From: Acetobacteraceae bacterium
GTDB lineage: Bacteria > Pseudomonadota > Alphaproteobacteria > Acetobacterales > Acetobacteraceae
Direction of reading: 5' to 3'
Length of the DNA: 64,000 nucleotides
Assembly: GCA_947475245.1 (NCBI GenBank)
Contig: CANJLW010000003.1
Span: forward strand, 62,001-126,000
Both the position numbers and the translations under genes were made by a program. The notes under the pieces were generated by a model that ran no database searches, was not told where the DNA came from, and saw only the letters and a list, made by a program, of their open reading frames with translations. This document shows, one piece after another, positions 18,829-63,836 of the stretch (positions are counted from its first letter, which is position 1; each line of letters begins with the position of its first letter).

Positions 18829-19206
18829 ATGACCATGAGCACAACGACCACGACGCCGACCCGCACGCGCCGCCCCCTGCCGCAGTTGATGACACTGACG
18901 GACACCGCCGCCGAACGCCTGACCCGCCTCTATGAAAAGGGCGAACAGGGCAAGCTGCTGCGCATTTCCGTCAAGACCAAGGGCTGCTCCGGCCTGTCCT
19001 ACGACATGAGCTGGACCGACGAACCCGCCCCCAGCGACGAGATCGTGACCGACAAGGGGCTGACCGTTCTGGTGGACCGCAAGGCCAGCCTGTTCCTGAT
19101 CGGCACCGTGATGGATTACGAGACCAAGGCGCTGACCTCCGGGTTCACGTTCACCAACCCGAACGAAAAAGGCCGCTGCGGCTGCGGTGAGAGCTTTCAC
19201 GTTTAA
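18829..19206 (+). CDS. A-type Fe-S carrier (SufA/IscA/ErpA family)
   Basis: 125 residues. After a Thr-rich, probably disordered N-terminus the A-type fold begins at LTDTAAERLTRLYEKG. The three ligand cysteines are in TKGCSGLSYDM (about 53) and the C-terminal KGRCGCGESFHV (Cys-x-Cys). It delivers clusters to apoproteins. Last identifiable suf gene, 33 bp after sufT. Starts ATG 18829 and 18835 are both possible. SufA is favoured over ErpA by context. Confidence 0.93.
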   Translation: MTMSTTTTTPTRTRRPLPQLMTLTDTAAERLTRLYEKGEQGKLLRISVKTKGCSGLSYDMSWTDEPAPSDEIVTDKGLTVLVDRKASLFLIGTVMDYETKALTSGFTFTNPNEKGRCGCGESFHV

Positions 19207-19225
19207 CCCGGAACGACAGCGCCCC

Positions 19226-20590
19226 ATGACCCAGGACCCCGCCTTCGCCCTCGCCGATCACGTCGTCGCCACCGGCTTCGCCGACCTCCCGGCCTCCGCC
19301 ATCGACGCCACCAAGCGCGACATCCTCGATACATTCGGCTGTATGCTCGGCGGCACCGCCTCCCCCGGCATCGACGACCTCTGCGCCGTGCTCGGCCATT
19401 GGGGCGGGCGAGAGGAAAGCCGGGTCCTGCTGCGCGGCACCAGACTGCCGGCGCCGCAGGCCGCGCTGCTGAACGCAGCCATGGGCCACGCGCTGGATTT
19501 CGACGATACGCTGGATCACGGCGGCTCCATCCATCCCGGCGTGTCCGTGCTGGGCGCGACACTGGCCGCCGCCGACATGCTGGGCGGCGTATCCGGGCGA
19601 GATTTCGTGCTGGCGGTAACGCTGGGCATGGATGTGTCGTGCCGCATCGCCATCGCCTCCACGCTGGATCGCGGCTGGCACCGCACGGCCGCGATCGGCA
19701 TCTTCGGCGCCGCCGCCGCCGTCGGCAAAATGATGGGGCTGAACGCCGAACAAATGCGCCACGCGCTGGGCATCGCCTATAGCCACGCGGCGGGCAACCG
19801 CCAGTGCATCGTCGACGCCGCGCTGACCAAGCGCATGCAGGCAGGTCAGGCCGCCGGCGACGCCATCCTGTCGGCCGTGCTGGCCCAACGCGGCTTTACC
19901 GGCGCGCATAACGTCTTCAACGGCAAGTTCGGCTTTTTCGAACTCTACCAGCCGAACGGCGCCGATCCGTCACTCCTGTTAAAGGATCTGGGAACGGCGT
20001 TTCGCGGCGAGGAAGTCAGCTTCAAGCCCTACCCCTGCGGTCGCCCCCTGCATGCCGCCATCGACGCCGCCCTGGCGCTGCGCGGACAATTGGGCATCAA
20101 CGGCGCGGACGATATCGAAAGCCTGACCATCGCCGCCGATCCCGCCGGCTATGCCGATCAGTTCGAGGGCGGCGCGCACAAACGCCATCCGACCCAGGTC
20201 GTGGAAGCACAGTTCGCCGTGCCGTTCCTGGTCGCCGCCGCCATGGCATACGGCCAGGTCGGCATCGCCCAGGTCGCCAACTGCGACGACCCCACGGTGC
20301 GCGCTTTGTCCGCCCGCATCGCCGGCGTGTCGGTCGCCGACAAGCCGAAAGGCTGGGTCAGCATCGCCGCCACCGTCCGATCCGGCCGAACCGCGACCGT
20401 GATCGCCACCGATCCGATCGGCTCCCCACACCGCCCGCTCAGCGCCGAACTGTGCGAAACCAAGTTCCGCGACTGCGCCGCCAACGCGCTGCGTGCACCG
20501 GCGGAAGCCGATATCGCCGCCGCCATCCGCGACATCGGCCGCCTGGAACAACTCTCCGACGCCACCGCCTGGATGCGCCCCTTCGCCTGA
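19226..20590 (+). CDS. MmgE/PrpD family protein
   Basis: 454 residues, the family's normal size. The members include 2-methylcitrate dehydratase and cis-aconitate decarboxylase. Visible regions are DTFGCMLGGTASPGIDDL (about 34-51), ALLNAAMGHALDFDDTLDHGGSIHPG split over about 75-98 (the HALDFDD motif is diagnostic) and KPYPCGRPLHAAIDAAL (about 268-284). ATG 19226 is preferred because the upstream ATG 19187 lies inside the Fe-S carrier gene. It may be read from the suf operon. No other methylcitrate-cycle genes are present, so the substrate is uncertain. Confidence 0.9.
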   Translation: MTQDPAFALADHVVATGFADLPASAIDATKRDILDTFGCMLGGTASPGIDDLCAVLGHWGGREESRVLLRGTRLPAPQAALLNAAMGHALDFDDTLDHGGSIHPGVSVLGATLAAADMLGGVSGRDFVLAVTLGMDVSCRIAIASTLDRGWHRTAAIGIFGAAAAVGKMMGLNAEQMRHALGIAYSHAAGNRQCIVDAALTKRMQAGQAAGDAILSAVLAQRGFTGAHNVFNGKFGFFELYQPNGADPSLLLKDLGTAFRGEEVSFKPYPCGRPLHAAIDAALALRGQLGINGADDIESLTIAADPAGYADQFEGGAHKRHPTQVVEAQFAVPFLVAAAMAYGQVGIAQVANCDDPTVRALSARIAGVSVADKPKGWVSIAATVRSGRTATVIATDPIGSPHRPLSAELCETKFRDCAANALRAPAEADIAAAIRDIGRLEQLSDATAWMRPFA

Positions 20591-32367: not shown

Positions 32368-33942
32368 TCAACTACCCTCGCGACGAACGTTCCAGAACAC
32401 ATGCAAGCCGTTGTGCAACACGCCCTTCAGATTGGATCGATACGCGTTCGGCGCCGAAAACTGCCCCAGGAACATCTGCGGCGCCTGGTCCAGAACGCGA
32501 ATTTGCATCTCCTCCGCCAAAGCCAACCGCTTCTTCGGATCGGCCTCGACCTCGAACCGGGAAACCAGCGCCGGCATCTCCGGATCGCAATTCCAACCCG
32601 GATACGATCCGCCGCAGCTATAGGCTGTCGTGTAATGCGACAGCGGGTTGATCATGTCGTACCCGCTCCACACGACCGGCATCAGGCTCCATCCGCCCTG
32701 CTCCACCGGTGCCTTCAGCAGCCGCCGTTGCGCCTGGGAACTGTAATCCGACGAAACGACATCCAGATTGAACCCTGCTCGGCGCAACTGCTCGATCACC
32801 ACCAACGTGATCGGATTGATCAAGGCGGAATCCGTGCTGTGCAGCAACACGACCCGCTCATTCTTGTACCCCGCCTCCTTCAGCAGCGCCCGCGCCTTCT
32901 CGGCGCTCGGCTTGCGCAACCGCTCGACGCCCACTTCGGTCGCATAAGGCCCGCCGCAGAGGAAAATCGACTGGCAGAACGGCAGATACATGTCGTCCGG
33001 CAGGCCCAGGCCGACCATGATTTCCTGCTGATCCAGCGCGATCTGCGCCGCGCGGCGGATGCGGACATCGTTGAACGGCGGCTGAATGTTGTTGATCGAC
33101 AGGCCCCCGGTGATCTGCGCGATCGCCGGCAGACGCACGACGCTGATGTTCGGGTCCTTGCGCAGCAGCGCCACGTAGTCGATCGGCAAAACCTCCAGGT
33201 AATCGATCCCGCCGGTTTGCAGCGCCGCCACCTTCGTCGCCGGGTCCGGCATGCTGACAAGCTCGATCGAGTCGAAATGCACGACCTTCCCGCCCGCCAA
33301 CCCGTCGGCGGGCTCCGACCGAGGCTTATAGGCGGCATTGCGGCGGAAGATCGCCTTGTCGCCGGGACGCCACTCATCCCGCCGGAACGTGAATGGCCCC
33401 GAACCCATCACCTCCACATTCGGCTTGCTTGGCTCGTTCGCCGCCATCCGCGCGGGCATCATGAACGGCACGATCGCATTGGGCTTGCCGATGGCCTCGA
33501 TCACAAACGCAAAGGGACGCGACAACTCCAACGTGAAGCTGCGCGCATCGACCACGCGCAGGTCCTTCGTCGCGCTCATCAACTGCTTGCCGAAACCGTC
33601 GATCTTCGCCCAGCGCCGCAGCGAGGCGACGCAATCCTCCGCCGTGACCGGTGCCCCGTCATGCCAGGCCAGACCCGGACGCAAGGTGAAGGTCCAGCGC
33701 AGCCGATCGTCGTCGACCTTCCAGGATTCCAGCATTTGCGGGTGAAACACCCCCTTGGAATCCATCGCGATCAGCGTGTCGTAAACCATGTAGCCGAACG
33801 CACGCGTAACCGTCGCCGTCGTCGAATGCGGATCGAGCACCTGAAGCTCGATATTCATCACCGCCCGCAGCGGTTTTTGTTGCGCCGACAACGACGACGC
33901 GAAAGACATCAGAACGGCCGCGAGGCATAAAATCCGGCGCAT
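32368..33942 (-). CDS. ABC transporter substrate-binding protein, peptide/nickel family 5
   Basis: 524 residues with signal peptide MRRILCLAAVLMSFASSLSAQ. DTLIAMDSKGVFHPQMLESW, WTFTLRPGLAWHDGAPVTAEDC (about 80-101), MGSGPFTFRRDEW and VRIRRAAQIALDQQEIM (about 295-311) are the usual DppA/OppA-type landmarks. It captures a peptide or other small solute in the periplasm. No permease or ATPase genes are adjacent, so it must use a transporter encoded elsewhere. It begins 6 bp after the oxygenase gene stop. Confidence 0.93.
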   Translation of the reverse strand: MRRILCLAAVLMSFASSLSAQQKPLRAVMNIELQVLDPHSTTATVTRAFGYMVYDTLIAMDSKGVFHPQMLESWKVDDDRLRWTFTLRPGLAWHDGAPVTAEDCVASLRRWAKIDGFGKQLMSATKDLRVVDARSFTLELSRPFAFVIEAIGKPNAIVPFMMPARMAANEPSKPNVEVMGSGPFTFRRDEWRPGDKAIFRRNAAYKPRSEPADGLAGGKVVHFDSIELVSMPDPATKVAALQTGGIDYLEVLPIDYVALLRKDPNISVVRLPAIAQITGGLSINNIQPPFNDVRIRRAAQIALDQQEIMVGLGLPDDMYLPFCQSIFLCGGPYATEVGVERLRKPSAEKARALLKEAGYKNERVVLLHSTDSALINPITLVVIEQLRRAGFNLDVVSSDYSSQAQRRLLKAPVEQGGWSLMPVVWSGYDMINPLSHYTTAYSCGGSYPGWNCDPEMPALVSRFEVEADPKKRLALAEEMQIRVLDQAPQMFLGQFSAPNAYRSNLKGVLHNGLHVFWNVRREGS

Positions 33943-33948
33943 CGCGCG

Positions 33949-34965
33949 TTACTCCGCCGCCTGGGTTTCCGCCGGCTTTCGCCGGTGGTCGAAATTCGTC
34001 ATGTTCAGTTTCCGACGGTGATCGGCATACAGCAGCGGCTCGTACTTCGCCGGATTATCCGCGCTGACGCACGGGTCGACCGGACGGATCACCGCATCCA
34101 GACCCGGCCCGAAGAAGAACGGAATGGCATGACGCAGCGCATTGTTCGCGTTGACGACGCGATGCGGCGTCGGAATGTAGCGATCGTTGGAATACCGCCC
34201 CAGCATCTCTCCGGTATTGACCACGAACGTGCCGGGAATGGCGGGCGGTCGGATCCACTCGCCCTCCCGCGTGCGCACTTCCAGACCCGGCAGCTTCGAT
34301 TGCGCCAGCAGCGTCAGGAAATTGGTGTCGATATGCGGCGCGAAACCGAACTGATTATCCTCCGCCCCGTCATGCGACGGATAGCGGATCAGCCGCAGTG
34401 TGCAGGTCGGTTCCGCGCCGAAATCCCGCTCGAAGTAATCCGGCGCGACGCCCAGCGACGTCCCGACGGCGGAAACCATCGCGCGCGCCAACGGCCGCAT
34501 CGCGTTGCAATACGCCATCGTCGCCGCCTTGAACGCGGGCATGTCGGCGGGCCAGCGGTTCAGCCCATACAGCGGATCGCCGGCCAGAATGCGCGGATCG
34601 TCCGCCGCCAAATCCGTCACGATATAGAAACTCTCGCTCAGGTTCGGCTTGGTGTTGTTGTTGATCTTCGACGTGCGCACGATCTGCGCCCCATACGGCA
34701 GATAGCCGATGTTCAGATCGCCGATTTTGTGGGCCAGCTTGAAGTCTTCCGCGCGATCGAAAAACGACCCCGCCGCCGCGAACGTCGCGTCGATCAAGGC
34801 CTGATCGATGCCGTGATTGGCGATCACCAGAAATCCGGTGTCCTGACAGGTGCGGTCGATCTGCTCCGCCAACCGCTCCCGCGCGCCCGGCTCATTCGCG
34901 CGATACGGACCAATATCCAGAACCGGAATGCGTCCCTCTCTGTCGGAGATACTGATCTGGGTCAT
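33949..34965 (-). CDS. Isopenicillin-N-synthase-like 2-oxoglutarate/Fe(II) oxygenase
   Basis: 338 residues. The DIOX_N part (IPVLDIGPYR..., DRTCQDTGFLVIANHGID, about 12-60) precedes the jelly-roll core. GFAPHIDTNFLTLLAQ supplies the HxD iron ligands (about 210-212), and YIPTPHRVVNAN supplies the distal His (about 267), followed by RHAIPFFFGP. ATG 34965 with AAAAGGA upstream is chosen over upstream ATGs. It heads the oxygenase - binding protein - propeller set and is divergent from the AtuA operon. Substrate unknown. Confidence 0.88.
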   Translation of the reverse strand: MTQISISDREGRIPVLDIGPYRANEPGARERLAEQIDRTCQDTGFLVIANHGIDQALIDATFAAAGSFFDRAEDFKLAHKIGDLNIGYLPYGAQIVRTSKINNNTKPNLSESFYIVTDLAADDPRILAGDPLYGLNRWPADMPAFKAATMAYCNAMRPLARAMVSAVGTSLGVAPDYFERDFGAEPTCTLRLIRYPSHDGAEDNQFGFAPHIDTNFLTLLAQSKLPGLEVRTREGEWIRPPAIPGTFVVNTGEMLGRYSNDRYIPTPHRVVNANNALRHAIPFFFGPGLDAVIRPVDPCVSADNPAKYEPLLYADHRRKLNMTNFDHRRKPAETQAAE

Positions 34966-35033
34966 CGCACCGATCCTTTTCCGCATTCTGATGCAACAGC
35001 CTATCACGCGGACAAATCGGTTCAAGCGGACTT

Positions 35034-35149
35034 AAGGCAACGCCGACAAACACGTGCGTCTGCACGTCGGCGAAGTTGGCGTCAAAGACAATAACTTAGG
35101 GCTCGTTCAACACGATTGATCGATTCGACGATCGTGGAACAAGCCCTAA
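35034..35149 (+). repeat. 116-bp double-hairpin repeat, copy 1
   Basis: It begins AAGGCAACGCCGACAAA and ends AACAAGCCCTAA. It holds two inverted repeats: CGCCGAC...GTCGGCG, and TTAGGGCTCGTTCAAC...with GTGGAACAAGCCCTAA as its partner. The second copy (40347-40462) has the same length and orientation, with roughly 87% identity by eye. The pair brackets the operon 35201-40334. It lacks outer terminal inverted repeats and an open frame, so it is REP- or MITE-like. Confidence 0.85.
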
Positions 35150-35200
35150 GGTTGCGAAACCGCCGATAGTAGGGTGGATTGAAGCGGGAGAACGACGACC

Positions 35201-35224
35201 ATGACCACCGGAACGCACATATGA
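35201..35224 (+). CDS. Possible 7-codon leader peptide overlapping the AtuA-family gene
   Basis: ATG at 35201 preceded by AAGCGGGAG reads MTTGTHI and stops at TGA 35222, overlapping the ATG of the next gene (ATGA). The downstream ATG has no good ribosome site of its own, so coupling through this short frame is plausible. Confidence 0.35.
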   Translation: MTTGTHI

Positions 35225-36588
35225 CCAAGGAAATCCGCCTGCTCTCGACCAGCGCCATTCTGGGGTACGGCTTCCCGGAGGCATCGCTGAAGGCCGGCAT
35301 GGCTCGAAACCCCGACATGATCGGCGTCGACGGCGGCAGCGTCGATCCGGGGCCGCATTATCTCGGCTCCGGCAAGCCGTTCTGCTCCCCCATCGCCATC
35401 CGCCGCGACCTGAAGCTGATGCTGCACGCCGCCATCGCCGCGAAAATCCCGCTGGTCATCGGCACCTGCGGCGGCGCGGGCGGCGAACCCCATCTGCAAC
35501 TCGTCGCCGACATGGCCCGCGACATCGCCCGCGAAGACGGGCTGCACTTCAAGATGGCGCTGATCCACGCCGAACAATCCAAGGACGAGATCAGGCGCCG
35601 CAACGCCGCCGGACGCATCCGCGGCCTCGCGCATCAACCCAACCTGACAGACGCCGTCATCGACCGATCCAGCCGCATCGTCGGCATGATGGGTCCGGAA
35701 CCGTTCATCGAGGCGCTGGACAACGGCGCGCAGGTCGTCCTCGCCGGTCGCGGTTCCGATCCCGCCCCCTGGGCCGCCGCTGCCATCCGCGCGCAACTGC
35801 CCCCCGCCCCCGCCTGGTACGCCGGTAAGATGTTGGAGTGCGGCGCCACGCCGTCGATCCCCAAGGGCCACGACTGCCTGTTCGTGACGGTGCGCGAGGA
35901 TCACGTGGAGTGTGAACCGACCAACCCCGCCCGACGCTGCACCCCGCTGTCGATCGCCAATCACTCGCTGCACGAAAACGCCAGCCCGATCCATCATATC
36001 GAACCGGGCGGCATGCTCGATACCTCGGCCTGCCGTTTCGATGCCGTCTCCGACCGCGCCGTCCGCATCTCCGGCATGACCTGGAACCCGGCAACGCAAT
36101 ACACGGTGAAACTCGAAGGCGTCGAACTGGCCGGCTACCGCGCCATCTGCGTCGCCGGCACGCGCGATCCGCTGCTCATCGGCCGGTTGGATAACTTCCT
36201 CGACTCCGTCCGCGCCGAAGTCGCCACCAAGGCGGCCAATTTCGGCGCAACCCCCGATACCTACCAACTCGGCATCCGTGTCTATGGCCGCGACGGAGTC
36301 ATGGGCGTGCGCGAACCCGTGTGCGACTCTCTCGGCCACGAACTCGGCTTCGTGATCGAGGTCGTCCATCGCGACAGCCAGGAAATGGCCGGCGCCGTGC
36401 TGGGCATGGCGCGCGCCAACATGCTGCACACCGACTTTCCGGGCCGCCTGTGCCGCGAGGGCAACATGGCCTTCCCCTTCTCCCCTTCCGACATCGATGT
36501 CGGACCGGTCTACCGGTTCAGCGTCTATCACGTCGCCGAAGTGGACAATCCGACCGAACTCTTCCCCATCGAATACGAGACGGTGTGA
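35221..36588 (+). CDS. AtuA family (DUF1446) acyclic-terpene-utilisation-type protein
   Basis: 455 residues. The N-terminal MTKEIRLLSTSAILGYGF, then IGVDGGSVDPGPHYLGSG (about 40-57), LVIGTCGGAGGEPHLQL (about 80-96) and VLAGRGSDPAPWAAAAIRA (about 178-196) are family hallmarks. AtuA was named from the citronellol/geraniol pathway of Pseudomonas but has no established reaction. The protein is usually paired with a DUF4387 protein, as here. First gene of a five-gene operon with an oxygenase and CoA-ester enzymes. Confidence 0.88.
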   Translation: MTKEIRLLSTSAILGYGFPEASLKAGMARNPDMIGVDGGSVDPGPHYLGSGKPFCSPIAIRRDLKLMLHAAIAAKIPLVIGTCGGAGGEPHLQLVADMARDIAREDGLHFKMALIHAEQSKDEIRRRNAAGRIRGLAHQPNLTDAVIDRSSRIVGMMGPEPFIEALDNGAQVVLAGRGSDPAPWAAAAIRAQLPPAPAWYAGKMLECGATPSIPKGHDCLFVTVREDHVECEPTNPARRCTPLSIANHSLHENASPIHHIEPGGMLDTSACRFDAVSDRAVRISGMTWNPATQYTVKLEGVELAGYRAICVAGTRDPLLIGRLDNFLDSVRAEVATKAANFGATPDTYQLGIRVYGRDGVMGVREPVCDSLGHELGFVIEVVHRDSQEMAGAVLGMARANMLHTDFPGRLCREGNMAFPFSPSDIDVGPVYRFSVYHVAEVDNPTELFPIEYETV

Positions 36589-36589
36589 C

Positions 36590-36901
36590 ATGGCGACGAT
36601 CCGCGAGACCGCCCGCGTCTGCAAAAGCAAAAATGCCGGCCCCTTCGAACTCACCATCGACGTGGTGTTCGACAACGCGGACATCTTCAACCGCGTGAAG
36701 GCGACCGGCGTGCTGTGTCCCGACCTGTTCGCCAGACTCTACAACGTGCCGGCCGAACACGTCCTGTTCACCCCATACGATGCCGCCTTCGCGTTCAAGG
36801 CGACCTTCCCCCGACTGGTTCCCGCCGGAGAATTCGGCGACACCGATGTCTATGGCTGCCAGCAGCACGCACCGCTGCTGGACGTCGATCTTCCCATCTG
36901 A
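36590..36901 (+). CDS. DUF4387 domain protein
   Basis: 103 residues. RVCKSKNAGPFELTIDVVF near the N-terminus and RLYNVPAEHVLFTPYDAAFAFK with the C-terminal FGDTDVYGCQQHAPLLDVDL match the DUF4387 pattern. It accompanies AtuA-family proteins so regularly that the two are presumed subunits of one enzyme. ATG 36590 follows the AtuA gene stop by 1 bp. Confidence 0.85.
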   Translation: MATIRETARVCKSKNAGPFELTIDVVFDNADIFNRVKATGVLCPDLFARLYNVPAEHVLFTPYDAAFAFKATFPRLVPAGEFGDTDVYGCQQHAPLLDVDLPI

Positions 36902-36916
36902 AAGCGAGACGGTCCA

Positions 36917-38278
36917 ATGAACCGCATGATGACTCTGGTGGCCTTCCTGCAGGCCCAGAACTGCTCCAACCTGCCGGGCTCCTGGCGCCATCCGGAAACC
37001 ATGCTGGATTTCATGACGCCGGAATACTACCAGCGCATCGCCCGCACGCTGGAAGACGGCAAAATCCAACTGGCCTTCTTCGACGACCGCCTGGCCCTGC
37101 CCGATCTTTACACCGGCAACCACCTCGAAGCGATCGGCGCGGGCGTCCGCGCGGTCAAGATGGACCCCTCCACCCTGCTCATGGCCATGGGCATGGCCAC
37201 CAGCAAGCTGGGTCTCGGCACCACCTATTCAACCACTTACTACGAGCCCTACCACGTCGCCCGCGTCTTCTCGACGATGGACCTGATGCTCAAGGGCCGC
37301 GTCGGCTGGAACATCGTCACCTCGCTGAACAGCGCGGAGGCGCTGAACTTCGGCAAGGCCGAACACATGGAACACGACGCCCGCTACGATCGCGCCGATG
37401 AGTTCATGGACGTGGTCATGGGCCACTGGAACACCTGGGACGACGACGCCCTGATCCTCGATAAGGCCACCAGCCGCTTCGCCGACGCGACCAAGGTGCA
37501 TCGCCTGGATCATGAAGGCACCTATTTCCGCTCACGCGGCCCGTTCAGCGTGCCGCGCTCACAGCAGGGCCACCCCGTGCTGATCCAGGCCGGCCAGTCC
37601 GGCCGCGGCCAGGCCTTCGCCGCCAAATGGGCGGAACTCGTGTTCGTGATCTACCATGACCTGGAAGCCGGCAAAAAATCCTATGCCAACTTCAAGGCCG
37701 CCGTCGCCGCCAACGGACGCGACCCGTCCCAGGTCCACGTCGCCCCGGCCTGCTACGTCTGCGTCGCCGGTTCCGAGGACGAAGCCCAGGAAAAGCGCGC
37801 CATCGTCGAGGCCACCGCCCGCCCCGTTGACGCCCTGGTGCTGATCTCCGAAGTGCTGAACTACGATTTCGGCGCAAAGGGCTACGACGAACCGTTCAGC
37901 GACGAAGAACTCGCCGGCTTCAGCTGGCACGGCTTCCGCGAACGCGTCGTGCAATATTCCGGTAAAAAGAACCCCACCGTCCGCGACTTCGTCGAGGTCT
38001 CCGGCCGCGGCACCGTCAAGGAACACAAAATGTTCTGCGGCACCCCCAAAAGCGTCGCCGATCAGATGGAAGAATGGTTCACCGCCCCCGCCTGCGACGG
38101 CTTCGTCCTGGCCGCGACCCATATGCCCGGCGCTTACGAAGACGTCGTCAGACTTCTGGTGCCCGAACTGCAACGGCGCGGCCTGTTCCAGAAGGAATAC
38201 GCCGGCACGACTCTGCGCGACAATCTCGGCCTGCCGATCCCCCGCGCGGCGGATTACCACCGGGCGAAAGGCCGCTGA
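36917..38278 (+). CDS. LLM-class flavin-dependent monooxygenase (NtaA/SnaA/DszA type)
   Basis: 453 residues, the size of the NtaA/SnaA/DszA group rather than of the smaller F420 enzymes. WRHPETMLDFMTPEYYQRIARTLE replaces the usual N-terminal helix. MGMATSKLGLGTTYSTTYYEPYHVARVFSTMD, GWNIVTSLNSAEALNFG (about 131-147) and PVLIQAGQSGRGQAFAAKWAE (about 216-236) are the FMN-binding landmarks. It uses FMNH2 from a separate reductase to hydroxylate or cleave its substrate. No flavin reductase gene is adjacent. Middle gene of the operon. Confidence 0.9.
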   Translation: MNRMMTLVAFLQAQNCSNLPGSWRHPETMLDFMTPEYYQRIARTLEDGKIQLAFFDDRLALPDLYTGNHLEAIGAGVRAVKMDPSTLLMAMGMATSKLGLGTTYSTTYYEPYHVARVFSTMDLMLKGRVGWNIVTSLNSAEALNFGKAEHMEHDARYDRADEFMDVVMGHWNTWDDDALILDKATSRFADATKVHRLDHEGTYFRSRGPFSVPRSQQGHPVLIQAGQSGRGQAFAAKWAELVFVIYHDLEAGKKSYANFKAAVAANGRDPSQVHVAPACYVCVAGSEDEAQEKRAIVEATARPVDALVLISEVLNYDFGAKGYDEPFSDEELAGFSWHGFRERVVQYSGKKNPTVRDFVEVSGRGTVKEHKMFCGTPKSVADQMEEWFTAPACDGFVLAATHMPGAYEDVVRLLVPELQRRGLFQKEYAGTTLRDNLGLPIPRAADYHRAKGR

Positions 38279-38280
38279 TC

Positions 38281-39135
38281 ATGCTGCGCAGCTTCCTGTT
38301 CGCCCCCGGCAATCACGCCCGCCGGGTCGAAAAAGCCCTGACCATCCCCGCCGACGCCGTCATCCTGGATCTGGAGGACGCCGTCGCGGTCGCCGAAAAA
38401 CCCGCGACACGCCCCCTGGTCGTCGCCGCCTTCACCCAACCGCGCGCGGGCAAACTCTACGTCCGCGTCAACGCGCTCTCCACCGACTGGTGCCACGCCG
38501 ACATCGTCGCCATCGCGCACCCGGGCCTCGACGGCATCATCCTGCCGAAAGTCGAATCCGCCGATCAACTGCGCACCGCCGACTGGCTTCTCGCGAACCT
38601 GGAACGCGAACGCGGCCTGCCGGTCGGCGCGATCGACCTGATCCCGATCATCGAAACCGCCCTGGGCATGAGCGCGATTGACGCCATCGCCCGATCCGGC
38701 ACCCGCGCCGCGCGTCTCGCCTTCGGCGCGGGCGACTACACCCTCGATCTCGGCATGCGCTGGTCACGCGACGAACTGGAACTCCTGCCGGCGCGATCCG
38801 CCGTCGTCATGGCATCGCGCGCCGCCGGCATCGAACCGCCGATCGATACCGTCTGGGCCGACCTGCGCGACGCGGAAGGCTTCGTCCGCTCCGCCGATCA
38901 CGCCGCCGCCCTCGGCTTTCAGGGCAAGATGTGCATCCACCCCGACCAGATCGCCCCCGCCAACGCCGCCTTCTCCCCCAGCGAGGCCGCCCTGGCCCAG
39001 GCCCGCCGCGTCGTCGCCGCCTTCGAGGAAGCCGAAGCCAACGGCCTCGCCTCCATCCAACTCGACGGCCAGTTCATCGACTACCCGATCGTGCAGCGCG
39101 CCCGCCGCATCGTCGAACAGGGAGACCGCGCATGA
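38281..39135 (+). CDS. HpcH/HpaI-CitE family CoA-ester lyase
   Basis: 284 residues. LRSFLFAPGNHARRVEKAL and DAVILDLEDAVAVAEKP (about 20-36, the metal-binding LEDAV) are the CitE signature. PKVESADQLRTADW, LIPIIETALGMSAID and FGAGDYTLDLGMRW (about 141-154) complete the TIM barrel. Members cleave citryl-, malyl- or methylmalyl-CoA type esters or hydrolyse malyl-CoA. It starts 2 bp after the monooxygenase and overlaps the CoA-transferase gene by 4 bp. Confidence 0.92.
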   Translation: MLRSFLFAPGNHARRVEKALTIPADAVILDLEDAVAVAEKPATRPLVVAAFTQPRAGKLYVRVNALSTDWCHADIVAIAHPGLDGIILPKVESADQLRTADWLLANLERERGLPVGAIDLIPIIETALGMSAIDAIARSGTRAARLAFGAGDYTLDLGMRWSRDELELLPARSAVVMASRAAGIEPPIDTVWADLRDAEGFVRSADHAAALGFQGKMCIHPDQIAPANAAFSPSEAALAQARRVVAAFEEAEANGLASIQLDGQFIDYPIVQRARRIVEQGDRA

Positions 39136-40334
39136 TCGACGTCCAGGCCCTGCAAGGCTGCCGCGTGCTCGATGTCGCCAGCTTTCTCGCCGGCCCCTTC
39201 TGCGCCACCCAGCTGGGGGAATTCGGCGCGGAGGTCATCAAGGTCGAACTCCCCGGCGTCGGCGACGCCACGCGCCGCTTCGGCACCATGACCGATTGCG
39301 GCGACTCGCTCCCCTGGATGTCCGAATCCCGCAATAAAAAATGCATCACCCTCGACCTGCGCAAACCCGACGGCGTCGTGCTGATCAAGCGCCTGGTCGA
39401 ACAGGCCGACGTGCTGGTGGAAAATTTTCAGCCCGGCACGATGGAGCGTTGGGGCCTGGGCTGGGACATTCTGAGCGCCATCAACCCGCGCCTGATCATG
39501 GTGCGCATCTCCGGCTTCGGGCAGACCGGCCCGTATAAGGACCGACCCGGCTTCGGCCGCATCGGCAACGCCTTCGGCGGCCTGTCCTTCCTCGCCGGCT
39601 ACCCCGATCGCGCGCCCGTCACCCCAGGCTCCGCCACCATCCCCGACTATATGGCCGGCCTCTACGGCGCGCTGGGCACCCTGCTGGCCTTGCAGGCACG
39701 GGAAAAAACCGGTCGCGGGCAGGTCGTCGATATCGGCCTGTACGAGCCCATCTTCCGCATCCTCGACGAACTCGCCCCCGCCTTCGCCTACAAGGGCTAT
39801 GTCCGCCAGCGCATGGGACCCGGCACCGTCAACGTCGTTCCGCACAGCCATTATCCGACCAAGGACGGCCGCTGGATCGCCATCGCCTGCACCAACGACA
39901 AAATCTTCGCCCGCCTCGCCGCCGCGATGGGCCGCCCCGAACTCGCCGACGAAACAAGCTGGGGTCCCCTCGCCAATCGCGAATGCGACCGCGCCCTGGT
40001 CGACGAAACCGTCGCCGCCTGGACCGCGCAATTCGACCGCGGCGCACTGATGGACCTATGCGAGGACAATCAGGTCCCCTGCGGCCCGGTCTATGCCATC
40101 GATGAAATCTTCCAGGACCCGCACTACGCCGCCCGCGAAAACATCCTGCGCATGCAGGACCCGCGTTTGGGCGAGGTCGCGATCCCCAACCTCGTCCCCC
40201 GCCTCTCCGAAACCCCCGGCGCCGTCAACTGGCTCGGCGCGGCACTCGGGGCGCATAACGAGGAAATCTATCAGGGCATGCTGGGCCTGGACGCCGCCGA
40301 ACTTCAGCGGCTGCGCGATAGCGGAGTCGTCTGA
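39132..40334 (+). CDS. CaiB/BaiF-type (class III) CoA transferase
   Basis: 400 residues. LQGCRVLDVASFLAGPFCATQLGEFGAEVIKVELPG spans residues about 5-40. KKCITLDLRKPDGV, VLVENFQPGTMERWGLG (about 97-113), FGQTGPYKDRPGF and RGQVVDIGLYEPIF (with the catalytic Asp, near 199) are all present. It moves CoA between carboxylates. Last gene of the AtuA operon; ATG 39132 overlaps the lyase stop. Confidence 0.94.
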   Translation: MIDVQALQGCRVLDVASFLAGPFCATQLGEFGAEVIKVELPGVGDATRRFGTMTDCGDSLPWMSESRNKKCITLDLRKPDGVVLIKRLVEQADVLVENFQPGTMERWGLGWDILSAINPRLIMVRISGFGQTGPYKDRPGFGRIGNAFGGLSFLAGYPDRAPVTPGSATIPDYMAGLYGALGTLLALQAREKTGRGQVVDIGLYEPIFRILDELAPAFAYKGYVRQRMGPGTVNVVPHSHYPTKDGRWIAIACTNDKIFARLAAAMGRPELADETSWGPLANRECDRALVDETVAAWTAQFDRGALMDLCEDNQVPCGPVYAIDEIFQDPHYAARENILRMQDPRLGEVAIPNLVPRLSETPGAVNWLGAALGAHNEEIYQGMLGLDAAELQRLRDSGVV

Positions 40335-40346
40335 TCCCGCGCCGCC

Positions 40347-40462
40347 AAGGCAACGCCGACAAATAAGTGCGTCTGCACGTCGGCGAAGTTGCCGTCAAAA
40401 ACAATAATTTAGGGCTTGTTCAACACGGTTGATCGATTCGATTATTGTTGAACAAGCCCTAA
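40347..40462 (+). repeat. 116-bp double-hairpin repeat, copy 2
   Basis: Same length and orientation as copy 1 (35034-35149). The distal inverted repeat is perfect here: TTAGGGCTTGTTCAAC and GTTGAACAAGCCCTAA, 16 bp each. It starts 12 bp after the CoA-transferase stop and ends 4 bp inside the 3' end of the convergent GST gene (40459), so the hairpin may also act as terminator. Confidence 0.87.
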
Positions 40463-41127
40463 AAATCCAGATCGGCATAGTGGGCCGGGGGCGTCACCCC
40501 CGGCACGCGATCCGTCAGCAAACCGCGAAATCCCGGCCGCGACTTCACCCGCGCATACCATTCCTTGGCCGCCGGCGATAACGCCCAATCCACGTCGCCG
40601 ATGAAGTCGAGCGACGACAGATGCGCCGCCGCCGCGAAATCGGCCAGCGACAACGTGCCCCCGGCCAGCCATTTGCGGGTTTCCGCCAGCCAGCCCACAT
40701 ATTCCATGTGATACCGCAACGCGACATAGCCGGTGCGGATCGCCGCCGGATCGGGATTGCCCCGCCCGGTCAGCCGACGCATGAACTTCTCGCCCAACAG
40801 GTTCTGCGTCACCTCGGCGGCGAACTTGCCGTCGAACCAGGCCGTCAGCCGCCGGACTTCCACCCGCTCCGCCAGGGTCCGCCCCATCAGCCCGGAATCC
40901 GGATACGCCTCGTCCAGGTATTCGCAAATCACGCCGGAATCCGGAATGACCAGGCCGTTGTCCTCGATCAGCGTCGGCACGGTCCCCGCCGGGTTCAGGT
41001 CGAGGTATTCCGACCGACGCTCCCACGTCTTTTCCAGCCGCAACTCGAACGGCAGCCGCTTCTCGGCCAGCACCAGTCGGACCTTGCGCGCATAAGGCGA
41101 CAGCGGCAGATGATAGAGCAGGCGCAC
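40459..41127 (-). CDS. Glutathione S-transferase family protein
   Basis: 222 residues. Thioredoxin-like N-terminal domain: LLYHLPLSPYARKVRLVLAE (Ser/Cys-type active-site region), LNPAGTVPTLIEDNG (cis-Pro, about 47-61), IPDSGVICEYLDEAYP (Ser of the glutathione site). The C-terminal helical domain has LSLADFAAAAHLSSLDFIG. The start is GTG 41127, 6 bp after the stop of the upstream NDUFA9-like gene, so the two are co-transcribed. The last few codons lie in repeat copy 2, suggesting the repeat insertion trimmed or replaced the C-terminus. Confidence 0.88.
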   Translation of the reverse strand: MRLLYHLPLSPYARKVRLVLAEKRLPFELRLEKTWERRSEYLDLNPAGTVPTLIEDNGLVIPDSGVICEYLDEAYPDSGLMGRTLAERVEVRRLTAWFDGKFAAEVTQNLLGEKFMRRLTGRGNPDPAAIRTGYVALRYHMEYVGWLAETRKWLAGGTLSLADFAAAAHLSSLDFIGDVDWALSPAAKEWYARVKSRPGFRGLLTDRVPGVTPPAHYADLDF

Positions 41128-42212: not shown

Positions 42213-42259
42213 GCCCGCCCTACCGCACCTCCATGGTCGCAAGCCACGGAGTTCCTGGT

Positions 42260-42347
42260 GCCCAGGTGGCGGAATTGGTAGACGCGCAGGTTTCAGGTAC
42301 CTGTGGCCGTAAAGGTCGTGGAAGTTCGAGTCTTCTCCTGGGCACCA
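42260..42347 (+). tRNA. tRNA-Leu, anticodon CAG
   Basis: 88 bases, class II with a long variable arm and encoded CCA. Acceptor GCCCAGG/CCTGGGC, discriminator A. Anticodon stem CAGGT/ACCTG with loop TTCAGGT gives anticodon CAG. T loop TTCGAGT. It reads CUG, the dominant leucine codon in this GC-rich DNA. Confidence 0.95.
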
Positions 42348-42355
42348 ACAACATC

Positions 42356-43018
42356 ATGAGCACAACACTCTTCATGCCAAACGGCGCCATTCATCTGCAT
42401 CGGCACGACCTGCCCGATGGGCTTTCCCTTGGCCCCGTGGTCGCGGTCGACACAGAGACGATGGGCCTGAACCCGCACCGTGACCGGCTTTGCCTGGTGC
42501 AACTGTCCGGCGGCGACGGCCATGCGCATCTTGTGCAACTGATCCCCCCCCATCTCGGCGGACGCGGCTTCGATTGCCCCAATCTGAAGCGCATGATGGC
42601 AGATCGCGACGTCGTAAAGCTGATGCATTTCGCGCGCTTCGACGTCACCGCCCTCCAACACAGCCTCGATATCGTCGTCGCGCCCGTGCGCTGCACCAAA
42701 ATCGCCGCCAAGCTGATTCGCACCTTCACCGACCGGCACGGGCTTAAAGACCTGTGCAAGGAACTGCTGGGCGTCGAACTGTCCAAGCAGCAGCAAAGCT
42801 CGGACTGGGGCGCGCCGACCCTGACGGCGGAGCAAATGGCCTATGCGGCATCCGATGTGCTCTATCTGCACGCCCTCTGGGCCAAGCTGGAAGCCATCCT
42901 GATCCGCGAAAACCGCCTGGAACTCGCCCAGGAATGCTTCGCCTTCCTCCCGACTCGCGGGCGACTCGACATGCTCGGCTACGAAACGCCGGATTTATTC
43001 GCTCACGAATCCAGGTAA
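42356..43018 (+). CDS. rnd: Ribonuclease D-like 3'-5' exonuclease
   Basis: 220 residues, a short RNase D with the exonuclease domain but without the C-terminal HRDC domains. The DEDDy catalytic motifs are VAVDTETMGLN (about 26-36), LMHFARFDVTAL (about 87-98) and MAYAASDVLYLHAL (about 159-172, Tyr and Asp). It trims 3' ends of stable RNAs. It starts 9 bp after the tRNA-Leu CCA end, so tRNA and mRNA share a transcript that would have to be cut. Confidence 0.92.
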   Translation: MSTTLFMPNGAIHLHRHDLPDGLSLGPVVAVDTETMGLNPHRDRLCLVQLSGGDGHAHLVQLIPPHLGGRGFDCPNLKRMMADRDVVKLMHFARFDVTALQHSLDIVVAPVRCTKIAAKLIRTFTDRHGLKDLCKELLGVELSKQQQSSDWGAPTLTAEQMAYAASDVLYLHALWAKLEAILIRENRLELAQECFAFLPTRGRLDMLGYETPDLFAHESR

Positions 43019-60515: not shown

Positions 60516-61871
60516 TCAGAAGCGTAACACCCCATCCAGAATCAACCCGGCCAGCGCCGCAACGCCCAGCGTGCGCAGGACACCGATTTTGAACCGGAAC
60601 AGGCACAGCGCCGCCAGGATCGCCAGCATCAGCGCCGACAGATCAAGGCTCGACAGCACCGGTACCTCGAACACGATACCGCCGACCGAAACGGGCTGCT
60701 GGGTATGGAACAGCACGCGCAAACCGAACCAAACCGCGAGGTTGGCGACAACGCCCACGACCGCCGCCGTGATCGCCGCCAACGCCCCGGCGAGCGAACG
60801 GTTCGACTGCAAACGCTCGATGACCGGCGCGCCGAGGAAGACAAAGGCGAAGCAAGGCGCGAAGGTCACCCACAGCGTCAGGACGGACGCAACGACCCCG
60901 CCGGCGACGCCGGTCAACGCGCCCGGTGCCCGAAACCCGGCCAGAAAGCCGACGAACTGCAAGACCAGGATCAGCGGGCCGGGCGTGGTTTCCGCCAGGC
61001 CAAGCCCCGCCAGCATTTCCGGCGCGGACAGCCAGCGATAGGACGCGACGGCGTCCTGCGCGACATAGGCCAGGACCGCATAGGCCCCACCGACCGTCAC
61101 CACCGCCATCTTGGAGAAGAACTGCGCGACATCGGCATAGGTTCCGCCGACCCAGACCGACAGTCCCACGACCGGCACCAGCCACACCACCAACGCGATC
61201 GCACCCGCTCGGCGGGCACCGGCCGCGAGGCGGGCCGGTCTGCCGGGATCAGTCGCCAGCAGCGCGTCAATCAAGGCGGGCGCGTCGGACTTCGCCGAAC
61301 CGTGTCCGCCATGGCTGAAACTGTCGGGCAGGAAGTAGCCGATCAACCCCGCGGCCAGCACCGTCAGCGGGAACGGCAGCCCCAGGAAGAACAAGGCAAC
61401 GAACGCCGCTGCCGCCAGGGACCATGCCATTGACCCTTTCAACGCCCGCTTGCCGATCCGCAACAGTGCCTCGACCACCAGCACCAGCACCGCCGCCTTC
61501 AGGCCGAAAAAGACGGCGGCGATCAGCGGCACATCGCCATACAGCGCATAGATCAGCGACAGGACCAGCATGACCGCCGCGCCCGGCAGGACAAACAGGA
61601 TGCCCGCCGCCAGCCCGCCGCGCACGCCGTGCATCAGCCACCCCAGATAGGTGGCGAGTTGCTGAGCCTCCGGCCCAGGCAACAGCGTGCAGAAGTTCAG
61701 CGCATGCAGAAACCGTCGGTCGCCGATCCATCGACGCTCATCGACCACCTCGCGATGCAGCATCGCGATCTGGCCCGCCGGCCCGCCGAACGACAGCAAG
61801 CCGATCTTCAGCCAAACGCGCAGCGCCTGCCCAAACGTGGGCATCTGCGCGTCCTTGGGATCAATGTTCAT
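60516..61871 (-). CDS. chrA: Chromate efflux transporter ChrA, two-domain
   Basis: 451 residues with two CHR domains (about 8-185 and 230-451). Domain 1 has SFGGPAGQIAMLHREVVDERRW and LLPGPEAQQLATYLG; domain 2 has TVGGAYAVLAYVAQ and ETTPGPLILVLQFVGF. About 11-12 membrane segments. It exports chromate by proton-motive force in characterised members. Its ATG overlaps the stop of the sulfotransferase-like gene, and a ChrB-domain gene heads the same set. Confidence 0.93.
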   Translation of the reverse strand: MNIDPKDAQMPTFGQALRVWLKIGLLSFGGPAGQIAMLHREVVDERRWIGDRRFLHALNFCTLLPGPEAQQLATYLGWLMHGVRGGLAAGILFVLPGAAVMLVLSLIYALYGDVPLIAAVFFGLKAAVLVLVVEALLRIGKRALKGSMAWSLAAAAFVALFFLGLPFPLTVLAAGLIGYFLPDSFSHGGHGSAKSDAPALIDALLATDPGRPARLAAGARRAGAIALVVWLVPVVGLSVWVGGTYADVAQFFSKMAVVTVGGAYAVLAYVAQDAVASYRWLSAPEMLAGLGLAETTPGPLILVLQFVGFLAGFRAPGALTGVAGGVVASVLTLWVTFAPCFAFVFLGAPVIERLQSNRSLAGALAAITAAVVGVVANLAVWFGLRVLFHTQQPVSVGGIVFEVPVLSSLDLSALMLAILAALCLFRFKIGVLRTLGVAALAGLILDGVLRF

Positions 61872-62917
61872 GTCGATACAGCCCAGGTTCGGGGTGGCAG
61901 ACCGCTATCCAACAGGAAACGATCGTACAAAGCGACCAACGCGTCGCGCGTGGCGGGTTCGCGCGTGTAATCGGGCGCAATCCAGGCAACGCGGTTGATC
62001 GACGGTTCGAACAAGCCTCGGGACGGGACCGGTTGGACGAGGCGGTCGCGATACTTCGCGGCCAATGCCGCGTGCAATCCTTCCAACCCGTGCATGGCGT
62101 CGGAAAGCTCCAGCTGTTGGGTGTGTCGCGCCATGGCCGATAACAGCGCCTCTGGAACAAGCGCGTTGCCGCCTTGCGTGATCCACTCCCGCACCGCCGC
62201 CCCCGCGACGCCGCCGCCGGCACCGTGCAGCGCGTTCAATGCGCGCACCGCTTCGACTTCAAGCGGCGTCATCGATCGGTTCGGCTGCGTGCCCAGAATG
62301 TCTGCCACGCCTCCAAGCGCCGCCCCCACTTCCGGCAAAAACGTATGGACGAAATGCGCGGCGATATCTGAGTTCGAACCGATGACGGCATCGTAGGAAA
62401 CCAGATGAATGGCATCCCGACCGAATGCCTGCCGCCATCGCGCCAGCACGCGGTCAAAGTCCACAAAACTCAACTGCGACGCCGACGCCAAGGCCGCCGA
62501 AACGAATTGCGGCAGAGTTTCGGTCGCACCGTGCTTGACGCGCTCTTGCCATACCGACGGCAACAAGCCCGACCAGCGACGGCAGTAGTAAACGATGCTG
62601 ACCGACTCCTCGCCGAACATCGCGCGCAGGGTCGCGACCGAGGATTCGGAAAGATAGCCCAAATCCTCGGCGGAAATGACGATCCGCTCCGCTCCATCCG
62701 CCAATAGTTCGGCGATATCGCGGCGCGCGGCATCGATCCGTTCGGCGTTCAGCGCGTCGTACAGTCCACGATGCCCGGGCTGATCGACGCTGTCCGACCA
62801 TTTCTCCGGGAATACGACTCCCCGCGAACGCAGCGCCGGCCGCAAGCGGGCCAGAACCTGTTGCAGATATGTGGTCCCGGTCTTGTGGGCACCGATATGG
62901 ATGAGAACCCGCGACAC
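61868..62917 (-). CDS. Sulfotransferase-like P-loop protein
   Basis: 349 residues. It starts MSRVLIHIGAHKTGTTYLQQ, in which HKTGTT matches the 5'-phosphosulfate (PAPS) loop of sulfotransferases. IVISAEDLGYLSESSVA (about 78-94) and IVYYCRRWSGLLPSVWQERV (about 107-126) correspond to the second, 3'-phosphate site region with Arg/Ser. Members sulfate polysaccharides or small molecules using PAPS. The gene sits between a ChrB-domain gene (14 bp upstream) and chrA (4-bp overlap), an unusual partnership. Confidence 0.78.
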   Translation of the reverse strand: MSRVLIHIGAHKTGTTYLQQVLARLRPALRSRGVVFPEKWSDSVDQPGHRGLYDALNAERIDAARRDIAELLADGAERIVISAEDLGYLSESSVATLRAMFGEESVSIVYYCRRWSGLLPSVWQERVKHGATETLPQFVSAALASASQLSFVDFDRVLARWRQAFGRDAIHLVSYDAVIGSNSDIAAHFVHTFLPEVGAALGGVADILGTQPNRSMTPLEVEAVRALNALHGAGGGVAGAAVREWITQGGNALVPEALLSAMARHTQQLELSDAMHGLEGLHAALAAKYRDRLVQPVPSRGLFEPSINRVAWIAPDYTREPATRDALVALYDRFLLDSGLPPRTWAVST

Positions 62918-62931
62918 GCTACGCCGCCTCC

Positions 62932-63750
62932 CTAGGAGGCGACGCCGGGCGTCGGCCAGTTATGCGCTTCGGTCACCGCATCCCGGCTCCATCGATAGAA
63001 CGCATCGTACAAACCCAAGGCGGCCTCCAACTGCGCAAGATCGTCACGATACATGCGTGACAATCCCAGGGAAGCCGCCAGCAGTCCGGCTGACTGCGGC
63101 GCAAGGTCAAGCCGAGCGGTGTCGGCGCAGCGAATAATGGTGGCGAGACGATCGAGGGGGTCGGAACGCAGGCCGAACGCATCGAGCATGACGTCAAAGG
63201 TGCAGCTATCGTCGCGATGACTCCAGAAAACACCTTCTATGTCGAACGGCGTGGCATTGAAGCGATCCGCGACCGACAGCACCTCCGACGGCGCGACGAA
63301 CAGGAAGCGCGCGGCGGGATCGATGAAACGTTTGATCAACCAGGGACAAGCGATTCGATCGATCTTGGGGCGCAGACGCGTGACCCATACGGTGCCGCCG
63401 CTCGCATCGCGCGGGGGCATGTGATCGGGCTTCACCAACAGTCCACCGGCGGCGGACCACGCGGCAAACCCGCCATCGAGTGTTTCGGCCGCGACACCGG
63501 CGCTGCGCAGCCAGGCCGCGACGCCCTGACTCAGCTTCAGGCCATTCTGACACACGACCACGACGGGGCGACCGACGTATTGCGCCGCCCAGACGTCAAC
63601 CGCGCGATAGTCGCGGCGGACCGAAGCCGGCAACATGCGGGGATCGAGGGCGTGATCCTCATCGATGCGGACATCGATAATGGCGGGTTGATCGGGGAGG
63701 CCGTTCAACCGCGTGAGTTGTTGAACGGATATGGCGTCCGGGTTTGGCAT
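62932..63750 (-). CDS. Rhodanese-ChrB fusion protein (chromate resistance domain)
   Basis: 272 residues. The N-terminal rhodanese domain (about 1-115) has IIDVRIDEDHALDP and the loop VVVCQNGLKLSQG, with Cys at the sulfur-transfer position (about 80). The C-terminal domain (about 120-272) is the chromate-resistance exported/ChrB type: VWVTRLRPKIDRIACPWLIKRFIDP split at 117-141, FNATPFDIEGVFWSHRDDSCTFD at about 163-185. ChrB relatives regulate or assist ChrA. AGGACGCAACGAT precedes the ATG. First gene of the chr set. Confidence 0.87.
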   Translation of the reverse strand: MPNPDAISVQQLTRLNGLPDQPAIIDVRIDEDHALDPRMLPASVRRDYRAVDVWAAQYVGRPVVVVCQNGLKLSQGVAAWLRSAGVAAETLDGGFAAWSAAGGLLVKPDHMPPRDASGGTVWVTRLRPKIDRIACPWLIKRFIDPAARFLFVAPSEVLSVADRFNATPFDIEGVFWSHRDDSCTFDVMLDAFGLRSDPLDRLATIIRCADTARLDLAPQSAGLLAASLGLSRMYRDDLAQLEAALGLYDAFYRWSRDAVTEAHNWPTPGVAS

Positions 63751-63836
63751 ATCGTTGCGTCCTATCCCAAAGGGTATTTCGGACGCGATGCTTTGGCCGA
63801 AGCCTCACGGGGCGATCGCGAATGGCCCCTTACCGA

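Follow-up and report, generated by a model that had tools for sequence, protein, structure and literature searches.

A five-gene operon with a predicted CmlAB-type lyase and a flavin monooxygenase in an Acetobacteraceae bacterium

In the methylaspartate pathway, glutamate is converted by way of 3-methylaspartate and mesaconate to citramalate, which is then split into acetate and pyruvate. DszA and NtaA, flavin-dependent monooxygenases, open a C-S or C-N bond. The closest solved structures to the lyase considered here are PDB entries 9ERQ and 9EVF, whose chains are named 'citramalate lyase, subunit A (cmlA)' and 'subunit B (cmlB)'; 9EVF is titled 'Citramalate lyase - ADP - pyruvate complex'. 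Here we describe an operon that joins homologues of CmlA and CmlB with a relative of DszA and NtaA in an Acetobacteraceae bacterium (assembly GCA_947475245.1; 5.23 Mb, 89 contigs). The stretch analyzed, hereafter the window, comprises 64,000 nucleotides (bases 62001-126000 of contig 3, CANJLW010000003.1), and coordinates are those of the window unless another contig or locus is named.

The block consists of five open reading frames (ORFs) on the forward strand (35221-40334), with successive gaps of 1, 15, and 2 bases and then a 4-base overlap. The ORFs encode an AtuA-family protein homologous to CmlA, the citramalate lyase large subunit (35221-36588; Pfam PF07287, E 2e-19); a DUF4387 protein homologous to the small subunit, CmlB (36590-36901; PF14330, E 1.2e-31); a two-component, flavin mononucleotide (FMN)-dependent, bacterial-luciferase-like monooxygenase of the NtaA/DmoA/DszA clade (36917-38278; PF00296, E 5.4e-41; TIGR03860); a HpcH/HpaI-CitE family lyase that is citramalyl- or malyl-coenzyme A (CoA) lyase-like, hereafter CitE (38281-39135; PF03328, E 2.9e-52); and a family III CoA-transferase (CaiB/BaiF), hereafter CaiB (39132-40334; PF02515, E 4.1e-117). 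CitE starts with the ATG at 38281; there is no start codon at 38278. A preliminary description of the window, made from the sequence alone, had noted five tightly spaced or overlapping genes of these families, and the ORF coordinates and Pfam bear this out for all five. In NCBIfam the monooxygenase scored above cut-off, CitE and CaiB gave only matches below cut-off, and neither AtuA nor DUF4387 gave a match.

A profile search of the PDB returned 9ERQ/9EVF as the sole match for DUF4387 and the sole strong match for AtuA. Single-sequence searches aligned AtuA with 9erq_A over residues 2-444 (E 8.5e-113) and DUF4387 with 9erq_B (E 2.6e-22). AlphaFold models of the two proteins had mean predicted local distance difference test (pLDDT) values of 94 and 92, respectively. 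With Foldseek, the AtuA model matched 9evf_A with a template modeling (TM) score of 0.94 and the DUF4387 model matched 9evf_B with scores of 0.88/0.86, and neither model matched anything in the PDB beyond 9EVF at E 0.001 or better. As in CmlAB, the two subunits are encoded by adjacent genes, and both are homologous to their counterparts over nearly the full length. Unlike in CmlAB, the window operon has a flavin monooxygenase in place of a methylaspartate cluster, and the AtuA protein is 42.8% identical to CmlA (437 columns). The sequence and fold matches suggest that AtuA and DUF4387 most probably form a lyase of the same kind as the citramalate lyase CmlAB, and that the pair may work like CmlAB is well supported by them. 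The preliminary description had the pair process a substrate, a role that can now be refined to that of a CmlAB-type lyase. DUF4387 was found in 27 of the 289 genomes of the class sample.

The family name AtuA points to terpene catabolism, a candidate that we dropped. That name (PF07287) is the only likeness to the acyclic terpene utilization (Atu) pathway; no further recognized terpene-pathway gene was present among the window proteins scanned, and there was no other evidence for terpenes.

The structural match agrees with the gene context, which had been worked out before that match. AtuA adjoined DUF4387 in all 30 loci fetched, from 40 listed matches. DUF4387 was likewise found at AtuA in 77 of 80 named AtuA loci, which are the best 80 of at least 581 confirmed matches; the other 3 run into contig ends. 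Genes of the methylaspartate pathway were present at 16 of the 80 named loci, all of them in anaerobes, including Terrisporobacter, Natroniella, Vallitalea, Carboxydocella, and Oscillospiraceae. These 16 clusters encode mutase E (16 clusters), mutase S (13), GlmL (12), and methylaspartate ammonia-lyase (14), as identified with Pfam/NCBIfam for one representative per protein cluster and by clustering for the others. A citramalate lyase fits such clusters because the splitting of citramalate is a step of that pathway. Fumarase-type alpha and beta subunits were each found in 7 clusters, with at least one subunit in 8 and both in 6. Thus, a lyase acting after mesaconate hydratase fits better than a replacement for the hydratase. 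The window operon shares with these glutamate-fermentation clusters the AtuA-DUF4387 module and the expected citramalate chemistry. It differs from them in that the window has no match to mutase E or methylaspartate ammonia-lyase (nor does the whole genome have one to mutase E), and in that those loci lack a monooxygenase of the window's kind. A protein of about 305 amino acids, P-loop ATPase-like by eye, also recurs in 13 of the 16 clusters (e.g., L188:4532-5443 and L176:14556-15518); when one representative was scanned, no Pfam match exceeded the cut-off, and tRNA_SAD matched weakly below it.

The preliminary description had linked AtuA/DUF4387 with an NtaA/SnaA/DszA-type monooxygenase in a combination it did not recognize, and this link extends far beyond the genome of the window. 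The window's AtuA belongs to a proteobacterial set of closer AtuA loci; at 35 of these 48, but at none of the 32 farther ones, the locus includes a monooxygenase of at least 58% identity. Given at least 16 matches to the monooxygenase family in the host genome, a chance paralogue within 10 kb is estimated for perhaps 6% of cases, far below 35 of 48. A tree built from 90 AtuA proteins cleanly separated the FMN-linked rows (43) from those of the methylaspartate clusters (16), with branch support of 100/98 for both; the remaining 31 rows, which belong to neither group and were not counted, lie among them and include closer loci that have no monooxygenase. CmlA falls on the side of the anaerobes, where the support is weak (80/83). 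The two groups share 91 near-invariant positions, at 86 of which CmlA agrees. A further AtuA-DUF4387 pair, distantly related (39.5% identity) and on a very long branch, lies on the same contig to the left of the window, at about 51.4-53.2 kb of contig 3 (L272), in a stretch that also holds an amidase-like match.

The monooxygenase scored 490 bits against TIGR03860, well above the cut-off of 280, and its nearest solved structure is DszA (5tlc, E 1.1e-109), with nitrilotriacetate monooxygenase (3sdo, E 3.4e-76) also matching. Unlike other enzymes of the NtaA/DmoA/DszA type, it has no reductase in its operon and is linked to a lyase. In a tree of 36 AtuA-linked and 20 other monooxygenases, the AtuA-link label required 5 changes, compared with 16.7 when labels were shuffled. 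This suggests that the association of the monooxygenase with AtuA is mostly co-inherited, with exceptions. Matches to a flavin reductase were found within the AtuA locus at 12 named loci, including those of Achromobacter, Candidimonas, Hydrogenophaga, and Variovorax.

The CoA-transferase and CitE-type lyase pair proposed in the preliminary description is supported by the Pfam families. It is the same family pair as the CoA-transferase and citramalyl-CoA lyase of itaconate/citramalate degradation. Unlike in that branch, no hydratase is present among the five genes and both enzymes score below equivalog cut-offs. CitE matched PDB entries 5ugr, 1sgj, 8khl, and 5vxc, and the nearest PDB entry to CaiB is succinate-hydroxymethylglutarate CoA-transferase 9br7.

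Conservation of the block was evaluated in 33 genomes of the genus, the window's included (codes G0xx denote genus members). Of these, 24 have an orthologue of the monooxygenase with at least 81% identity (for G016 the first search gave a partial match), and all 24 loci were examined. All five genes were present in the same order and on the same strand, over 4.8-5.4 kb, at 16 loci (AtuA is cut by the contig end in G026). Two loci start at a contig end with FMN-CitE-CaiB visible (G032 and G009). Elsewhere modules were missing from the locus, though not necessarily from the whole genome. CitE was kept and CaiB was lacking in G019 and G030, AtuA-DUF4387-FMN stood without CitE and CaiB in G007 and G027, FMN-CitE-CaiB stood without AtuA and DUF4387 in G006, and the monooxygenase stood alone in G004. 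That either lyase module can be absent, in different genus members, suggests that the two may replace each other.

The 16 five-gene loci fell into 8 upstream and 10 downstream neighborhood groups (11 and 14 for all 24 loci) when loci with less than 500 bases of flank were excluded, a grouping in which short contigs may conceal kinship. Thus, the block has been held together in changing surroundings. A single locus also brings the five families together in three Belnapia, in Neoroseomonas, and in Caballeronia, with the CitE match in Belnapia at only 38-39%. The preliminary description had suggested a search for such co-occurrence, and the same five-gene order at 16 of the 24 orthologous loci supports its view of the genes as one operon. 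The block is a chromosomal catabolic operon.

Partner genes give some indication of the type of compound handled. Other proteobacterial AtuA loci have matches to MmgE/PrpD proteins, TctC receptors, and a fusion of a flavin reductase with an IclR-type domain. The MmgE/PrpD family includes tricarboxylate dehydratases and epimerases. G001 has an MmgE/PrpD gene (Pfam) upstream of AtuA, with its end about 1.9 kb away, and G011, G016, and G003 have 24-28% matches to the family nearby. A class III aminotransferase (Pfam) lies directly upstream of AtuA in G027, and similar proteins were seen by eye near the block in G007 and G004. These partners point to carboxylic acids, possibly amino-substituted, without fixing the substrate. 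The window itself has an MmgE/PrpD gene (19187-20587, +) 15 kb from the operon, a family matched near AtuA in many proteobacterial loci. The G004 locus has a DUF2817 protein (L072:7115-8257, -) between its lone monooxygenase and an aminotransferase-like gene, and FtsZ-like genes were recognized by eye in the G027 and G004 loci.

In our best reading, to which we give a probability of roughly 50%, the operon oxidizes its substrate to a citramalate-like tertiary hydroxy acid that is split by a Cml-type lyase, with CaiB and CitE as a parallel branch. The FMN monooxygenase would oxidize the true substrate with reduced flavin from a reductase encoded elsewhere. The oxidation would probably open a C-S or C-N bond, as with DszA and NtaA, and release a tertiary hydroxy acid. 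AtuA and DUF4387, as large and small subunits, would cleave citramalate or a closely related tertiary 2-hydroxy dicarboxylate, yielding acetate and a 2-oxo acid, e.g., pyruvate. In a second route, which depends on CoA, CaiB may activate the acid with CoA taken from succinyl-CoA or a comparable donor, and CitE may cleave the resulting CoA ester; the products, acetyl-CoA and a 2-oxo acid, would be of the same kind. The sequences show the gene families, the conserved operon, the likeness of both subunits to CmlAB in sequence and fold, and the recurring link to the monooxygenase; we infer the substrate, the bond that is opened, the order of the reactions, and the ability of the lyase modules to replace each other.

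Several observations weigh against this reading. The lyase activity of AtuA/DUF4387 is a prediction from homology and fold, and the name of CmlAB comes from PDB titles. Sixteen AtuA positions are fixed differently between the FMN-linked and anaerobe groups. At these positions CmlA, which was not counted in either group, agrees with the anaerobes 15 times and with the FMN-linked group never, the remaining position having a third letter. The window AtuA therefore does not fall in one group with the solved CmlA, which is placed, weakly, on the anaerobe side of the tree. Together with the 42.8% identity to CmlA, these differences suggest that the substrate may not be citramalate. In this count 8 of the 43 FMN-linked rows are the window and same-genus relatives, with two more genus contigs, so that the rows are not independent events. 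A monooxygenase of at least 58% identity is lacking from 13 of the 48 closer AtuA loci, several on short contigs and others (such as those of Microvirga and Thalassobaculum) not. Two of the linked monooxygenases (L141 and L150) cluster with other paralogues, and the linked set includes two rows from G038 whose linkage was not checked. No flavin reductase is present in the operon, and nothing in the window matched an Achromobacter reductase query. CitE scored below all four NCBIfam cut-offs listed (the best being 236 of 443 bits for citE and 175 of 375 for RipC), and the best NCBIfam match of CaiB was a succinate-glutarate CoA-transferase at 249 of the 750 bits needed. Moreover, the losses of modules in the genus, such as CitE without CaiB or the monooxygenase alone, could be ordinary decay.

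The preliminary description had also emphasized repeats around the block, which lie between it and its neighbors. To the left are a 2-oxoglutarate/Fe(II) oxygenase (33949-35025, -; PF14226 and PF03171) and an extracellular solute-binding protein of family 5, as in dipeptide/nickel-type ATP-binding cassette (ABC) transport (32368-33942, -; PF00496, E 1.8e-64). To the right is an fzlA-like gene of glutathione-transferase fold (40459-41127, -) that narrowly missed the NF050814 cut-off (293 bits; cut-off 300). Repeats of 116 nucleotides lie on both outer edges (35034-35149 and 40347-40462) in the same orientation, as had been described, and are 91% identical. Both resemble a miniature inverted-repeat transposable element (MITE), folding into hairpins far better than shuffled sequences do (z -5.9 and -8.6, + strand). 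The left copy (35033-35149, +), between the divergent oxygenase and AtuA genes, has a 111-base core (35036-35146) with TAA at both ends (35033-35035 and 35147-35149). The right copy (40346-40462, +) lies between CaiB and fzlA, overlapping the stop codon of the latter, and has unlike end triplets, CAA/TAA. Genome-wide there are 7 near-full and 2 partial copies; 6 further search rows are the second hairpin matching its own complement. Three of the 7 near-full copies, including the left window copy, have equal triplets and 4 have unlike ones. Therefore, the unlike triplets of the right repeat were dropped as a possible trace of recombination. In a simulation of random placement, a like-oriented pair no more than 5,313 bp apart arose in 2.1% of trials with 7 copies and 3.5% with 9. 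Judged after the fact, the pairing around the block is mildly unusual.

Six of the 33 genomes of the genus carry the repeat family, G028 with at least 26 matches and G013 with at least 27. All 20 copies fetched with flanks (19 from G028 and 1 from G016) have the 111-base core and equal end triplets (TAA in 14, TTA in 5, and TAT in 1), as a small non-autonomous transposon would leave after simple insertion. The G028 copies are nearly identical, and the amplification of the family in G028, G016, and G013 is that of a recently active MITE; no transposase was seen with the family in these relatives. An end-sequence search for a transposase-bearing parent hit 17 places in the window's genome, 15 in known copies and 2 isolated with one mismatch (a reversed control hit 3), and found no parent element. 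No repeat was detected (blastn, E 0.001) in 109 loci of other genomes, which comprise 23 genus, 6 family, and 80 named AtuA loci; the genus and family loci all hold a monooxygenase homologue, and some loci are the same contigs under two names. The left-hand genes (the oxygenase, the solute-binding protein, and a beta-propeller gene) adjoin the operon in G031 and G014 too, whose right-hand neighbors are unlike the window's. Alignment of the left intergenic region to that of G031 scored 58 with the repeat removed and 45.5 otherwise, a weak difference in a diverged region. An fzlA orthologue (at least 79% identity) was found in 29 of 32 genomes searched, the window's included, and the operon lay beside fzlA in none of the 18 regions fetched elsewhere. 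Among the regions seen, the CaiB-fzlA junction at the right copy was found only in the window's genome. The repeats are an ordinary scattered MITE-like element and do not define the block.

Alternative explanations were weighed against these results. One somewhat unlikely explanation is that the FMN-linked AtuA/DUF4387 lyase splits another tertiary hydroxy acid, such as a 2-substituted malate containing N or S or a tricarboxylate resembling citrate, with CaiB and CitE acting on a second fragment so that the modules work in series. The group-specific positions, at none of which CmlA has the FMN-group letter, would be expected in that case, and the MmgE/PrpD matches and TctC receptors near many loci, as well as the aminotransferases near the block in three genus members, point in the same direction. 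However, the near-invariant positions common to both AtuA groups speak against it, and the independent absence of modules within the genus is less expected for serial steps. It is quite unlikely that AtuA/DUF4387 is instead a hydratase of a branched unsaturated dicarboxylate, converting mesaconate to citramalate and feeding CaiB and CitE. Such a mesaconase was the first idea suggested by the methylaspartate clusters; it would give a simple chain with CaiB and CitE, and 8 of the 16 anaerobe clusters have no fumarase-type subunit in the stretch fetched. It was lowered because the other 8 do carry such a subunit and because the solved homologue was deposited as a citramalate lyase with pyruvate bound.

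The preliminary description had further proposed that the block is a repeat-bordered unit that moved, or could be lost, through recombination between direct repeats, which we consider very unlikely. The two copies on the outer edges, rarely so placed by chance, would fit such a unit, as would the right copy at a junction seen only in the window's genome and its unlike triplets, though most near-full copies in that genome share this feature. However, the element is scattered in the genus, its copies in relatives and the left window copy have matching triplets, and the repeat is missing from all 109 other loci. G031 and G014 share the left junction without it. Thus, the same five genes at the same locus without repeats, which was to speak against the proposal, were found on the left side, whereas the right-hand neighbors differ. 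Relatives that lack the block and keep one repeat were not seen in a comparison that did not extend to strain-level relatives. Deletion through recombination between the two copies is possible. That the five genes are together by chance or have unrelated functions is highly improbable. The many paralogues in the genome, with at least 16 matches to the monooxygenase family (17 of 43 candidates scored), would fit it, but the same order across so many neighborhood groups, and the five families within one locus in Belnapia, Neoroseomonas, and Caballeronia, do not support this explanation.

Judged from sequence, the operon is a variant of the citramalate-lyase type, for which a structure was recently solved, with a link to oxygen chemistry, and no description of its pathway was found. 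In the open-access literature we found no paper on DUF4387 and, among the matches listed, none on CmlAB or 9erq; four papers on 'citramalate lyase' since 2022 were off-topic by their titles or the starts of their abstracts. The gene combination was not found described there either, AtuA plus monooxygenase never having been searched as such. AtuA-family proteins, also in connection with methylaspartate, turned up in a single paper, on iron in Prevotella/Porphyromonas, which has a table with a methylaspartate ammonia-lyase next to AtuA-family genes (PMC10434189). AtuA (PF07287) and DUF4387 (PF14330), families with a vague function or none so far, become a testable enzyme, a two-subunit, acetate-releasing lyase. 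Two AtuA groups are set apart by their genetic partners, and the 16 positions are offered as candidates for substrate choice. The operon points to an oxygen-dependent proteobacterial route whose substrate is reachable with a growth or metabolomics screen. We tentatively propose, at less than even odds, that the FMN-linked clade may be a distinct nucleotide-binding C-C lyase with its own tertiary hydroxy acid, that it may form an undescribed aerobic pathway of Alpha- and Betaproteobacteria with a DszA/NtaA-type monooxygenase, and that the AtuA of terpene degraders may be an acetate-releasing lyase too.

Elsewhere in the window, a chrB-a RNA (RF03078, 63748-63834) lies directly upstream of a ChrB-type gene (62935-63750), near a chromate transporter gene (60519-61871), all within 60519-63834 on the reverse strand. 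A RNase D-like ORF, recognized by eye (42233-43018), begins before a predicted tRNA gene (42260-42344). Because the listed start precedes the tRNA gene, the true start of the ORF is probably downstream.

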